Assembly: GCA_029243385.1 (NCBI GenBank)
Contig: JAQWSC010000007.1
Span: forward strand, 62,001 to 126,000
Source: Flavobacteriaceae bacterium
Lineage (GTDB): Bacteria > Bacteroidota > Bacteroidia > Flavobacteriales > Flavobacteriaceae
DNA length: 64,000 bases
Reading direction: 5' to 3'
A program made the position numbers and the translations under genes. Positions 30,752 to 35,917 of this stretch are shown in pieces; position 1 is the stretch's first letter, and every line of letters begins with the position of its first letter. Below the pieces are notes generated by a model. The model was given only the letters and a program-made list of their open reading frames with translations. It was not told the DNA's origin and made no database searches.

Positions 30752-30759
30752 TATATTTG
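30752..30759 (+). promoter_or_regulatory. -7 promoter box (TATATTTG) for rpsO
   Basis: This TAnnTTTG match lies 55 bp before the rpsO ATG. The predicted transcription start, about 6-7 bp downstream, coincides with the start of the hairpin at 30765-30783. Confidence 0.6.
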
Positions 30760-30764
30760 CCGCT

Positions 30765-30783
30765 CCAACAGAAAATCTGTTGG
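30765..30783 (+). promoter_or_regulatory. Perfect 8-bp hairpin at the predicted 5' end of the rpsO mRNA
   Basis: CCAACAGA (30765-30772) and TCTGTTGG (30776-30783) pair perfectly around a three-base AAA loop. The element begins about 6 bp after the -7 box and ends 31 bp before the rpsO start codon. It would be the first structure in the transcript. In several bacteria S15 binds its own leader and represses translation. Whether this hairpin is such a site or simply stabilises the mRNA is unknown. Confidence 0.55.
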
Positions 30784-30814
30784 CTACATAATAATCATTT
30801 ACATAAATATTGGC

Positions 30815-31084
30815 ATGTATTTAACAAAAGAAGTTAAGGAAGAGATTTTCAAAAAACACGGAAAATCTGAAAAAGACACCGGTTCGACAGAGGGACAAAT
30901 CGCATTGTTTACCCACCGAATCAATTATTTAACAGGACACCTCAAAGAAAATCGTAAGGATTTTAATACCGAACGTTCCCTCGTAATGTTGGTAGGAAAG
31001 CGAAGAAGCCTGTTGGATTATTTAAAACGAAAGGATATCAATAGATATCGTGCGATTATCAAAGAATTGAATATAAGAAAATAA
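30815..31084 (+). CDS. rpsO: 30S ribosomal protein S15
   Basis: This 89-residue protein has the standard length for S15, a primary 16S rRNA-binding protein of the small-subunit platform. The signature is TGSTEGQIALFTHRINYLTGHLKENRKDFNTERSLVMLVGKRR-like, seen as GSTEGQIALFTHRINYLTGH followed by the SLLDYLKRKD segment. It is followed by a Rho-independent terminator and then pnp, the same gene order as in Escherichia coli. Confidence 0.97.
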   Translation: MYLTKEVKEEIFKKHGKSEKDTGSTEGQIALFTHRINYLTGHLKENRKDFNTERSLVMLVGKRRSLLDYLKRKDINRYRAIIKELNIRK

Positions 31085-31201: not shown

Positions 31202-33406
31202 ATGATACCTAAAACCTTTACTGAGTCTATAGACTTAGGCGATGGAAGAATCATTACCATCGAAACAGGAAAGCTTGCCAAGCAAGCCGACGGTTCAGCA
31301 GTCATTCGATTGGGAAATGCTATGTTATTAGCAACCGTTGTATCGGCTCGAAAAGCCAGTCCTGTCGATTTTTTACCACTTACAGTAGATTATCGCGAAA
31401 AATTTGCCTCTGCAGGAAGATTCCCAGGTGGATTCTTTAAGCGAGAAGCAAGACCTAGCAACGACGAAATATTGACCATGCGATTGGTCGATCGTGTATT
31501 GCGTCCTCTATTTCCGAAAGATTATCACGCCGAAACGCAAGTGATGATTCAACTGATGTCTCATGACGACGATGTTATGTGTGATGCCCTTGCTGGACTA
31601 GCAGCCTCCACAGTGATTCAATTGTCTGATATTCCTTTTGAATATCCTATCTCTGAAGCTCGTGTAGGAAGAATTGACGGAAAGTTTGTTATCAACCCCA
31701 GCCGAACGCAGCTTGAAGAATCAGACATCGATATTATGATCGGTGCAAGCGAAGATTCTGTTGCCATGGTAGAAGGTGAATTTGACGAAATTTCTGAAGA
31801 AGAAATGGTAGAAGCCATCAAGTTCGGCCACGAAGCTATCAAAGTTCAAATCGCTGCACAAATTCGTCTTGCGGAAGCTGTAGGTAAAAAAGCAACTCGC
31901 GAATACGAACAAGAAGAAAGCGATGATGCTATTGCTGCCAAAGTTAATGAAGCAGCCTATCAAAAGTGTTACGATATAGCCAAATCCGGTTCATCCAAAC
32001 AAGAGCGCGGCGAAAAGTTTGGTCTGGTTAAAGACGAAGTTATTGCTCTGTTTAGTGAAGAAGAGCAAGAAGAAAAAGGCCACTTAATATCTAAATATTT
32101 CAGCTCAACTCAAAAAGAAGCAGTTCGTGAAGTAGTCTTGGCCGAAGGAAAACGATTGGACGGAAGACAAACAGACGAAATCCGTCCTATTTGGTGTGAA
32201 GTTGATTATTTGCCTTCTACACACGGATCTTCAATTTTTACTCGAGGAGAAACACAAGCATTAGCGACCGTTACTTTGGGAACTTCCAGAGAAGCGAATA
32301 TTATTGATTCGCCTTCTCATCAAGGAGAAGAAAATTTTTATTTGCACTACAATTTCCCGCCGTTTTGTACGGGTGAAGCGCGCCCACTTCGTGGAACTTC
32401 ACGAAGAGAAATTGGTCATGGAAACCTGGCTCAACGTGCTCTTAAAAAAGTAATGCCTGACAATTGTCCTTATACCGTTCGTATTGTATCGGAAGTGTTA
32501 GAATCTAACGGATCGTCCTCAATGGCCACGGTTTGTTCTGGAACTATGGCACTTATGGACGCAGGAGTTCAAATTCGTAAACCTGTTTCAGGAATTGCTA
32601 TGGGATTGATTTCCGATGGAGAGCGATACGCTGTATTGTCTGATATTTTGGGAGATGAAGATCACCTTGGTGATATGGACTTTAAGGTGACCGGAACCGA
32701 AGATGGGATTACCGCATGTCAAATGGACATCAAAATCAAAGGATTGTCCTATGAAATTTTAGTAAAAGCGCTGAAACAAGCTCTTGATGGTCGTTTGCAC
32801 ATTTTGGAAAAACTAGTAGCTACTATTGCTGCACCCGCAGAAGATGTGAAGCCACATTCGCCTAAAATGGTAACTCGAAGAATTCCCAACGATTATATCG
32901 GTGCCCTAATTGGACCTGGTGGAAAAGTAATTCAAGAGTTGCAAAAAGAAACAGGATGTACGATTGTTATTAACGAGGATCCTGAAACCGAAGAAGGAAT
33001 CGTGGAAATTTTAGGAACTTCAGCTGAGGGAATTGATGCTGTGCTCGCTAAAATTGACTCGATTACGTTCAAGCCCGAAAAAGGAGCTACTTATTCTGTA
33101 AAAGTTATCAAGATGTTAGATTTTGGAGCTGTTGTGGAGTATATAGAAGCTCCTGGAAACGAAGTTTTGTTACACGTTAGTGAATTGGCATGGGAACGTA
33201 CAGAAAACGTGTCAGATGTAGTCAACATGGGAGATGTTTTCGATGTGAAGTATTTTGGAGTGGATCCGAGAACTCGCAAAGAAAAGGTATCTCGAAAAGC
33301 CTTGTTAGAAAAACCTGAAGGCTATGTTGAGCGTCCACCGCGTAGAGACAATAATAGACGCGATAACCGAGGAGGTGATCGCAATCGCAATCGAAATAGA
33401 GACTAA
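31202..33406 (+). CDS. pnp: Polyribonucleotide nucleotidyltransferase (PNPase)
   Basis: This 734-residue phosphorolytic 3'-5' exoribonuclease has two RNase PH domains (about 1-230 and 310-540), a KH domain with [20 protein letters not shown], and an S1 domain with [23 protein letters not shown]. Catalytic-core segments include [36 protein letters not shown] and [19 protein letters not shown]. The C-terminus ends in an Arg/Asp/Asn-rich tail (about the last 20 residues), probably an extra RNA-binding or interaction tail. It converges on rny across a shared terminator. Confidence 0.97.
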
Positions 33407-33488: not shown

Positions 33489-35054
33489 TTACTTTGCGAT
33501 ATTTACCACACGAGTTTCACGAATCACAGTAACTTTTACTTGACCTGGATAGGTCATATCGGTTTGGATTTTTTGAGATATTTCAAAAGAAAGTTGAGCC
33601 GCAACATCATCAGAAACCTTTTCGCTTTCAACCATGACCCGAAGCTCTCTACCTGCTTGAATGGCATAGGCCTTTGTGACTCCCGTAAATTCATAAGCAA
33701 TATCTTCCATTTCTTTAAGTCGTTGGATATAACTATCTAACACCTGTCGTCGAGCTCCAGGACGAGCACCCGAAATCGCATCACAAACCTGTACAATGGG
33801 AGAGATAAGATTTTTCATTTCGATTTCATCGTGGTGCGCACCAATGGCGTTGCATACATCTTCTTTTTCTCCGTATTTTTCTGCCCATTGCATTCCCAAA
33901 ATAGCGTGAGGAGTTTCTGTTTCTTCTTCTGGTACTTTTCCAATATCGTGGAGCAGTCCTGCACGCTTGGCTACTTTGGCATTGAGACCCAATTCAGAAG
34001 CCATCACACCGCAAAGTTTTGCCACCTCGCGAGAGTGTTGCAATAAGTTTTGACCGTATGAAGATCGATACTTCATTCGACCCACAGCTTTTATAAGTTC
34101 GGGGTGAAGGCCGTGGATTCCCAAATCAATAACAGTTCGTTTTCCTACTTCAATAATTTCAGATTCAATTTGCTTGGTTGTCTTAAGAACCACTTCTTCA
34201 ATTCGAGCAGGGTGAATACGCCCATCAGTAACCAGTTTGTGTAACGATAAACGTGCAACTTCTCTTCGAACCGAATCGAAACATGAAAGAATAATTGCTT
34301 CTGGAGTATCGTCAACAACAATTTCAACACCAGTAGATGCTTCAATGGCACGAATGTTTCGACCTTCTCGACCAATAATCCGTCCTTTGACATCATCCGA
34401 TTCTAAATTAAAAACCGACACACAGTTTTCTACTGTTTCTTCTGTTCCTATTCGTTGAATGGTGCTAATAACTATTTTCTTTGCTTCTTGCTGAGCGGTT
34501 AATTTGGCTTCTTCAATAACGCTTTGGGCAAAGGCTAACGCATCGGATTTGGCTTCTTCTTTCAGTGAGCTAATGAGCTGTTGCTTGGCTTCGTCGGCTG
34601 ATAGGCCTGAAATTGATTCCAATTGGCTGACATGATTTTGATGAAGTTTTTCGAGTTCCTCTTTTTTCTTGTCAATATATTCTGACTTTTTGTTTAAACT
34701 TACCAGCTTGTCTTCAAGAGATTGATTGAGGCGCTTGTTTTTCGATATTTCATTGGACACCTGAGACTCTTTATCACGAATACGCTTTTGCGCCTCATTC
34801 ATCTTGTTCTCTTTAGAAGCCATGACCTTGTCATGTTCACTCTTAAGCTCTAAAAACTTTTCTTTTGCCTGAAAGAGTTTGTCTTTTTTAATAATTTCAC
34901 CTTCTTTTTTGGCTTCTCGAATAACTTGAGAGGCTTCTTTCTTAGCATTGGAAATTGTTTTATTTGCACTGCTTTTTTCAAGAATTTTTGAAATAATCAG
35001 TCCCAGTACAATTCCAGCAATACCAAAAGCGATGGTATAGGTATTAAATTCCAT
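33489..35054 (-). CDS. rny: Ribonuclease Y
   Basis: This 521-residue membrane-anchored endoribonuclease initiates mRNA decay. It has an N-terminal transmembrane helix (about 6-24), a long coiled coil (about 30-180), a KH domain with [20 protein letters not shown], and an HD domain with [12 protein letters not shown] and [10 protein letters not shown]. The length matches RNase Y of other phyla. It lies downstream of the 6S-like RNA and faces pnp, so two RNA-decay enzymes share one terminator. Confidence 0.96.
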
Positions 35055-35073
35055 TTTGTTTGTTTTTTTAAAT

Positions 35074-35240
35074 AAAAAAAGCCCACATCAATAAGGTTTT
35101 GTATAAACTCATATTAAACAGGTTTGAGGCTACTAAGTTGGTCAAGGATCCGTTCGAAGACGGCTTGCTTTTGCAACTTCACTCACCTCTTTTAATAGAA
35201 TTGGTGTTGAGTTTATCAAAAAATGCAATTGATGCAGGCA
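35074..35240 (-). ncRNA. 6S-like RNA (candidate 6S-Flavo) between zapA and rny
   Basis: The minus-strand RNA folds into one long rod. The closing stem pairs GCCTGCATCAAT (35239-35228) with ATTGATGTGGGC (35092-35081) over 12 bp including two G-U pairs, directly followed by seven T (35080-35074) as a terminator. Further paired blocks are ATAAACTCA with TGAGTTTAT (35216-35208 / 35111-35103), TATTAAA with TTTAATA (35197-35191 / 35118-35112), AGGT with ACCT, AAGTTG with CAACTT (35179-35174 / 35140-35135), and a terminal CAAGCCGT...ACGG...CTTG hairpin with a TTCG-containing loop. Internal bulges separate the blocks. Size (about 165 nt), rod shape and position just after zapA, as for E. coli ssrS, fit 6S RNA, which binds RNA polymerase. 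No TAnnTTTG box precedes it; TATATAAAATA at 35252-35242 may serve, or it is processed from the zapA transcript. Confidence 0.75.
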
Positions 35241-35265
35241 GTATTTTATATATGTTAATGAACGT

Positions 35266-35553
35266 TTAGGAAGTTAGCAATGTGGCTAACTCTTGATTCA
35301 AAGCTTCTATGCGACTTCCTATTTTTTTCTCTGTTAAAACTTCGCTATGGTCATCTCGAGCAGCTTGAGCAACAAGTTGAAGGGCACACATTGCCAAAAC
35401 ATCTTGCTTGTCATTCACTGCATAATTTTTTTCAAAGTGTTGAATCATGCTTTCAATTTTTTTTACGGCTTTTCTCAAAACCTCCTCTTCTTCGTTAGAA
35501 GAAACACTCAAGGGATACACCCTATTTGCGATTGTAAGCTTTATTTTCTGCAC
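35266..35553 (-). CDS. zapA: Cell division protein ZapA
   Basis: This 95-residue protein is the usual small size of ZapA, which bundles FtsZ filaments at midcell. It has the N-terminal beta region IKLTIANRVYPLSVSSNEEE followed by a long helix and coiled coil (VRKAVKKIES-like, DVLAMCALQLVAQAA). It is 15 bp downstream of a small coiled-coil gene and directly upstream of the 6S-like RNA. Confidence 0.92.
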   Translation of the reverse strand: MQKIKLTIANRVYPLSVSSNEEEEVLRKAVKKIESMIQHFEKNYAVNDKQDVLAMCALQLVAQAARDDHSEVLTEKKIGSRIEALNQELATLLTS

Positions 35554-35568
35554 TTATCAAGTTTTTTT

Positions 35569-35859
35569 TTAGGGATTTAGTTGCGCTATGCACGTATCTA
35601 TTTCCTTAATAAGATTACTTATAGTGTGTTTAACATGGGTCGTATTCTTACTACTGCCTTGCAATGTTTTTGCTATGACAAGTGACTGATATTTATCCTT
35701 CCAAAGAGTACTGTCTTTATTTTGGTCAGATACAAGCTGCTTGAGTTGATTTACTTTTTGACCCAACGACACGTTTTCTTTTTCAAGAATCTTCATTTTT
35801 TGAATCATTGTTCGAATGGTATTTTCCAACAAATCAATGGCTTGCATTGTTTCACTCAT
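35569..35859 (-). CDS. Small coiled-coil protein upstream of zapA
   Basis: This 96-residue protein is almost entirely helical with heptad-like spacing: IDLLENTIRTMIQKMKILEK and NVSLGQKVNQLKQLVSDQN. The C-terminus LIKEIDTCIAQLNP is conserved-looking. The frame is open to 35898, but a -7 box (35887-35894) lies inside that extension, so ATG 35859 is the start. Size, coiled coil and coupling to zapA suggest a ZapB-like division partner. This is inference; no sequence similarity to ZapB was established. Database labels for such genes as a phenylalanyl-tRNA synthetase subunit are not supported by the sequence. Confidence 0.75.
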   Translation of the reverse strand: MSETMQAIDLLENTIRTMIQKMKILEKENVSLGQKVNQLKQLVSDQNKDSTLWKDKYQSLVIAKTLQGSSKNTTHVKHTISNLIKEIDTCIAQLNP

Positions 35860-35886
35860 ACGATAGTAAACTTTACATATGCTCAT

Positions 35887-35917
35887 CAAAGTTAGCATTC
35901 CTAGTCCAATATTCCAA
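35887..35917 (-). promoter_or_regulatory. Promoter of the coiled-coil/zapA operon (-33 TTG, -7 TAACTTTG)
   Basis: On the minus strand a TTG (35917-35915) and TAACTTTG (35894-35887) are separated by 20 bp, the expected Bacteroidota spacing. The -7 box ends 27 bp before the ATG at 35859. Confidence 0.7.

Follow-up and report, generated by a model that had tools for sequence, protein, structure and literature searches.

A probable single-copy 6S RNA gene of the 6S-Flavo class between zapA and rny in a small-genome Flavobacteriaceae bacterium

In the 6S RNA family, a closing stem, a bubble and an apical arm mimic the open promoter complex, and synthesis of a short product RNA (pRNA) on the 6S template frees the polymerase. 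The 6S-Flavo class, represented by the Rfam model RF01685, reportedly goes back to Weinberg et al. 2010, and the Bacteroidales-1 RNA (RF01693) carries the Rfam annotation "suggested 6S-Bacteroidales". 6S-Flavo has been named as an expansion of 6S (PMC2864571), the RNAs found in Flavobacterium psychrophilum include a 6S RNA (PMC9723704), and the 6S RNA of Bacteroides thetaiotaomicron has been detected together with pRNAs (PMC7366714).

Here, we describe an RNA that is very probably encoded by a single-copy 6S RNA gene of the 6S-Flavo class (RF01685), located in a 64,000-nucleotide stretch of DNA (the window) from a small-genome Flavobacteriaceae bacterium. The host genome is 1.69 Mb in size; its RNase Y is about 80% identical to those of Sediminicola and Maribacter, and the nearest named relatives of this protein are from Flavobacteriaceae. 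The RNA at 35074-35239 is a routine member of an already catalogued family, and the gene itself is not new. What is new here, modestly, is an extended covariance model, a tie between 6S families, and the short distance between the 6S terminator and rny. The parts of the locus, in window coordinates, are as follows.

35266-35553, minus strand: zapA, encoding cell division protein ZapA, the upstream neighbour (Pfam PF05164, E 2.9e-14)
35255-35265, minus strand: conserved element ACGTTCATTAA, directly past the zapA stop codon and upstream of the RNA
35074-35239, minus strand: 6S-Flavo RNA gene (closing stem through terminator, about 166 nt), supported by the fold and the full-length model R1
35228-35239, minus strand: 5' arm of the 12-bp closing stem
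35208-35221, minus strand: 5' arm of the second stem (TTTTGATAAACTCA), partner of 35111-35097
35198-35207, minus strand: 5' side of the central bubble (ACACCAATTC), unpaired in the fold and left open by RNAalifold
35126-35189, minus strand: apical arm, composed of four helices
35189-35185 with 35130-35126, minus strand: apical arm helix
35179-35174 with 35140-35135, minus strand: apical arm helix
35170-35168 with 35146-35144, minus strand: apical arm helix
35163-35160 with 35153-35150, minus strand: apical arm helix
35112-35125, minus strand: 3' side of the central bubble, consisting of AAACCTG and TTTAATA, the latter able to pair with 35197-35191
35097-35111, minus strand: 3' arm of the second stem, counted on the alignment of 90 relatives
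35081-35092, minus strand: 3' arm of the closing stem, which doubles as the intrinsic terminator stem
35074-35080, minus strand: T7 run of the terminator, directly 3' of the closing stem
33489-35054, minus strand: rny, encoding RNase Y, the downstream neighbour (Pfam RNase_Y_N, 7.5e-36, with HD and KH_1)

A preliminary description of this region had reported an extended, rod-like hairpin on the minus strand between zapA and rny, and its coordinates and description proved accurate. The minus strand from 35260 to 35060 folds with an energy of -48.1 kcal/mol, compared with a mean of -30.5 (sd 3.8) for 200 dinucleotide shuffles, none of which reached native stability (z -4.65). As had been claimed, the closing stem comprises exactly 12 bp, pairing 35239-35228 with 35092-35081, and the T-run described directly after the 3' arm is present as seven consecutive T residues. 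A conserved ACTGCC on the 5' side of the RNA begins at 35242 on the minus strand, and the 5' end of the RNA is approximate.

The proposed membership in the 6S-Flavo class was borne out by the Rfam model RF01685, which matches 35212-35105 (minus strand) over its complete length, model positions 1-108, with 105.2 bits (cut-off 85, E 1.5e-17). A scan of the whole window with Rfam yielded two matches above cut-off. Elsewhere in the window, an S15-Flavobacteria ribosomal protein leader (RF03161) lies at 30752-30817 on the plus strand (74.5 bits, cut-off 46.5) and is followed by a pnp-like open reading frame at 31202-33406. RF01685 has a single match in the genome of the window; across 120 genomes of the family, that one among them, it matches 118, with one copy in each. 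The RNA scores above the class cut-off and is present across the flavobacterial family. The general 6S model RF00013, also suggested as a check, failed to match: at thresholds as permissive as E 10 it gave nothing on the window copy (cut-off 46.4 bits), and among 20 flavobacterial loci nothing was found at E 0.05. RF01693 aligned end to end with the window RNA at just 20.4 bits (E 0.28), far below its cut-off of 60.

Conservation of the structure was assessed on an alignment of 90 relatives spanning the full rod and its flanks. Of the 34 consensus pairs predicted by RNAalifold from these 90 sequences, 29 showed at least one compensatory change; the sequences are distinct but related, so that such counts are not independent events. 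When the window fold was counted on the alignment, 87.3% of cells were paired for the whole structure as against 79.8% in shuffles, and 368 cells carried double changes as against 101, a value reached by none of 500 shuffles. The window fold exceeded all 500 shuffles on each measure, and when the partners were displaced by 1-3 columns, pairing fell from 87% to 36-50%. Compensatory changes among relatives, which the preliminary description had proposed to look for in zapA-rny spacers, are abundant and exceed both the shuffled and all of the slid controls. In the closing stem 97.9% of cells are paired and both sides have changed in 11 of the 12 pairs. The adjoining second stem is paired in 88.9% of cells, and in the alignment GATAAACTC/GAGTTTATAC is replaced by GACAAACTC/GAGTTTGTAC in relatives; the three apical helices of the apical arm are paired in 95-98% of cells and show compensatory changes. 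A rod with a closing stem, a central open region and an apical arm, maintained by compensatory changes, is the architecture of 6S RNA generally. The Rfam model, 108 nt long, leaves out the closing stem and the terminator, whereas both are part of the RNA here; the covariation seen in these two elements favours adding them to the 6S-Flavo model.

The further paired blocks between these helices had been described correctly in that they are present, but their conservation is uneven. The helix adjacent to the bulge, TATTAAA/TTTAATA, is paired in just 70.8% of cells and is absent from the RNAalifold consensus; it is unlikely to be a fixed feature. The GAGGT/GCCTC block is real, with a register shifted by one alignment column in most relatives. 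The large asymmetric 5' bulge ACACCAATTC, suggested earlier as the open-promoter mimic, is present at 35207-35198, but since the helix next to it is weakly conserved, the open region is probably larger than this bulge.

The zapA, RNA and rny genes all lie on the minus strand, and Pfam confirmed both neighbours that had been named from the sequence. The same pair of genes flanks the RNA in nearly all of 112 RF01685 loci, which constituted the search set at that point and included two genomes fetched twice; for a few short fetches among them one neighbour went undetected. The main exception, the sole class-level match to RF01685 (L052, 38 bits), has neither zapA nor rny and was treated as a chance match. 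In distant members of the phylum, eight loci that match the canonical model RF00013 (L116-L123, of which just L116 scores above cut-off) have rny directly downstream in every case. Upstream, ZapA was confirmed by Pfam in the two loci checked, L116 and L119, and inspection showed similar small proteins in the others. The likeness to the position of E. coli ssrS, noted previously, holds for the zapA neighbourhood, which is common to both; in E. coli, ssrS follows zapA and is succeeded by fau rather than rny. Other families of the class contributed 27 rny loci; all 27 have a ZapA-like open reading frame upstream, and the intervening spacers include some with a long rod and terminator and others that are short and without a rod. 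At L216, L221, L223, L226, L227, L229, L235, L237-L239 and L241 the spacer is about 30-150 nt long and holds no 6S-like rod, and 6S has therefore moved or been lost there. Upstream of zapA in the window, at 35569-35898 (minus strand), is a gene for a 109-amino-acid coiled-coil-like protein with no Pfam match above cut-off and a weak one to ZapB (E 0.03); L116 and L119 have a small coiled-coil-like open reading frame at the same place.

A full-length covariance model of 168 positions, designated R1, was built from 61 flavobacterial sequences. It scores 163.5 bits on the window copy, which is part of its training set, at 35242-35075. Within the class, R1 found matches in many families beyond that of the window, where RF01685 found one and RF01693 none, a comparison between genome samples that differ. 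Because R1 carries no information on flanking genes, the zapA-rny context of its matches provides an independent check. Both genes were detected at 19 of 21 R1 loci (L252-L272), two of these with a weak piece of rny; at the R1 matches L265 and L269 neither gene was detected alongside. L265 is a true Bacteroidales-1 RNA, scoring 90.3 bits with RF01693 against a cut-off of 60, and because this R1 match passes the RF01693 cut-off, the two models recognise the same RNA. At three further loci (L038, L050 and L051), RF01685 and RF01693 both match one RNA. Neither E. coli ssrS nor any of the canonical 6S loci L116-L123 was matched by R1, and the tie to canonical 6S RNA therefore rests on synteny, on overall shape and on one sub-threshold match, that of RF00013 to the Sediminicola luteus copy (L125), which extends end to end with 37.5 bits (E 1.5e-4) and falls below cut-off.

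The transcription of the RNA and of rny may be linked. A search for an exact TAnnTTTG promoter for 6S or rny on the minus strand between 35055 and 35700, from the rny start to beyond zapA, found none, in agreement with the absence of this box remarked upon earlier. The rny ATG lies 19 nt past the T-run of the RNA in the window (35054-35080, minus strand), and at 97 loci the median distance from T-run to rny start is 20 nt, with fewer than 60 nt at 89 of the 97 and no TAnnTTTG in the gap. Because rny starts so close to the 6S terminator, the two genes may be transcriptionally coupled, and the short gap suggests either read-through from the 6S gene into rny or a start of rny transcription inside the 6S gene. 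Upstream of the RNA, GTTC[AT]TT occurs in 86 of 108 family loci where base shuffles predict 0.9; inspection shows that in several other families of the class, too, it lies close to the stop codon of zapA, while its spacing from the RNA varies. The longer form ACGTTCWTTAA has 8 matches genome-wide, of which one lies between two tRNA genes, one just before an apparent ribosomal-protein gene and, on inspection, several inside coding sequence. A role of GTTC[AT]TT as a general promoter of stable RNAs is not supported by these matches.

The same spacing, with a gap free of TAnnTTTG, would fit a cis-acting leader or attenuator, in which the rod is the 5' UTR of rny, its terminator sets the amount of RNase Y, and there is no free 6S function. 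We consider this very unlikely: the RF01685 match lies above cut-off, rny and the RNA come apart both in those class members whose zapA-rny spacer lacks a rod and at L265, which is not beside rny, and E. coli 6S precedes fau. Related RNAs have, moreover, been detected as 6S in F. psychrophilum (PMC9723704) and B. thetaiotaomicron (PMC7366714). A broader proposal keeps the 6S function and adds to it: the 6S gene would in Flavobacteriaceae also be the leader of rny, which has hardly any space for its own promoter, with read-through of the 6S terminator linking the levels of 6S and RNase Y and possibly the processing of 6S by RNase Y, and RF01685, RF01693 and part of RF00013 would form one vertical lineage whose ancestral site is between zapA and rny. 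Taken as a whole, this proposal is speculative and we regard it as doubtful.

For the 6S reading itself, the functional steps that we infer in the host organism are all drawn from described 6S RNAs. By this homology, the RNA most probably restrains RNA polymerase by mimicking an open promoter. It would accumulate as growth slows and bind the polymerase bearing the primary sigma factor, with the rod standing in for the open complex: closing stem as downstream duplex, central bubble as melted start site, apical arm as upstream promoter duplex. Sequestration of the enzyme would hold back transcription from ordinary promoters. When nucleotides return, the polymerase would start on the 5' side of the bubble and, moving toward the closing stem, synthesise a short product RNA, so that ACACCAATTC is the proposed template side of the mimic and the pRNA start would lie inside the bubble, near CAACACCAATTC; this synthesis would refold the rod and release the enzyme. 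The idea that the bubble's 3' strand imitates the Bacteroidota -7 box (TAnnTTTG) was also considered and was rejected, as the candidate could not be distinguished from background. The commonest family sequence, TAAACTTG, fits TAnnTTTG at 5 of the 6 fixed positions and the window copy at 3 of 6, and a median of 12.5 8-mers per RNA, TAAACTTG included, fit equally well or better.

A rod shape by itself cannot separate a 6S RNA from Ms1 RNA, described in PMC9130861 as structurally related to 6S and binding core polymerase. An Ms1-type RNA, which would bind the core enzyme instead of the sigma-bearing holoenzyme, is nevertheless a highly improbable reading of this locus: the Bacteroides homologue gives product RNAs, which fits a 6S of the holoenzyme type (PMC7366714), the synteny is shared with canonical 6S, and the general Rfam scan of the window, which constitutes the entire sequence comparison with Ms1, contained no Ms1 match. 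That the rod is no more than a chance hairpin or a strong and elongated intrinsic terminator belonging to zapA, devoid of any function in trans, would account for its place after that gene and its terminal T-run, but merits almost no credence given the bubbles and sequence blocks conserved in 118 of 120 genomes and the covariation along the whole rod, for which a plain terminator has no need.

Identification of this RNA as 6S confirms that a flavobacterium with a small genome has this global regulator of transcription. Beyond this locus, the full-length model reaches families of the class in which RF01685 and RF01693 gave few or no matches among the genomes searched, and the findings suggest that 6S-Flavo and Bacteroidales-1 may be treated as a single 6S family. 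Of wider interest, and open to testing, is one point: the possible coupling of 6S and RNase Y.

Among known systems, the 6S RNAs of the RF00013 family, such as E. coli ssrS and B. subtilis 6S-1, resemble the window RNA in being rods with a closing stem, a central bubble and an apical arm, although the window sequence has diverged too far to be matched by the RF00013 model. The Bacteroidales-1 RNA (RF01693) is alike in overall layout and aligns with the window RNA end to end; its copy at L265, unlike the window RNA, does not lie between zapA and rny. The closest counterpart is 6S-Flavo (RF01685), which comes from the same lineage, matches the window RNA over all 108 positions and shows no difference in kind.
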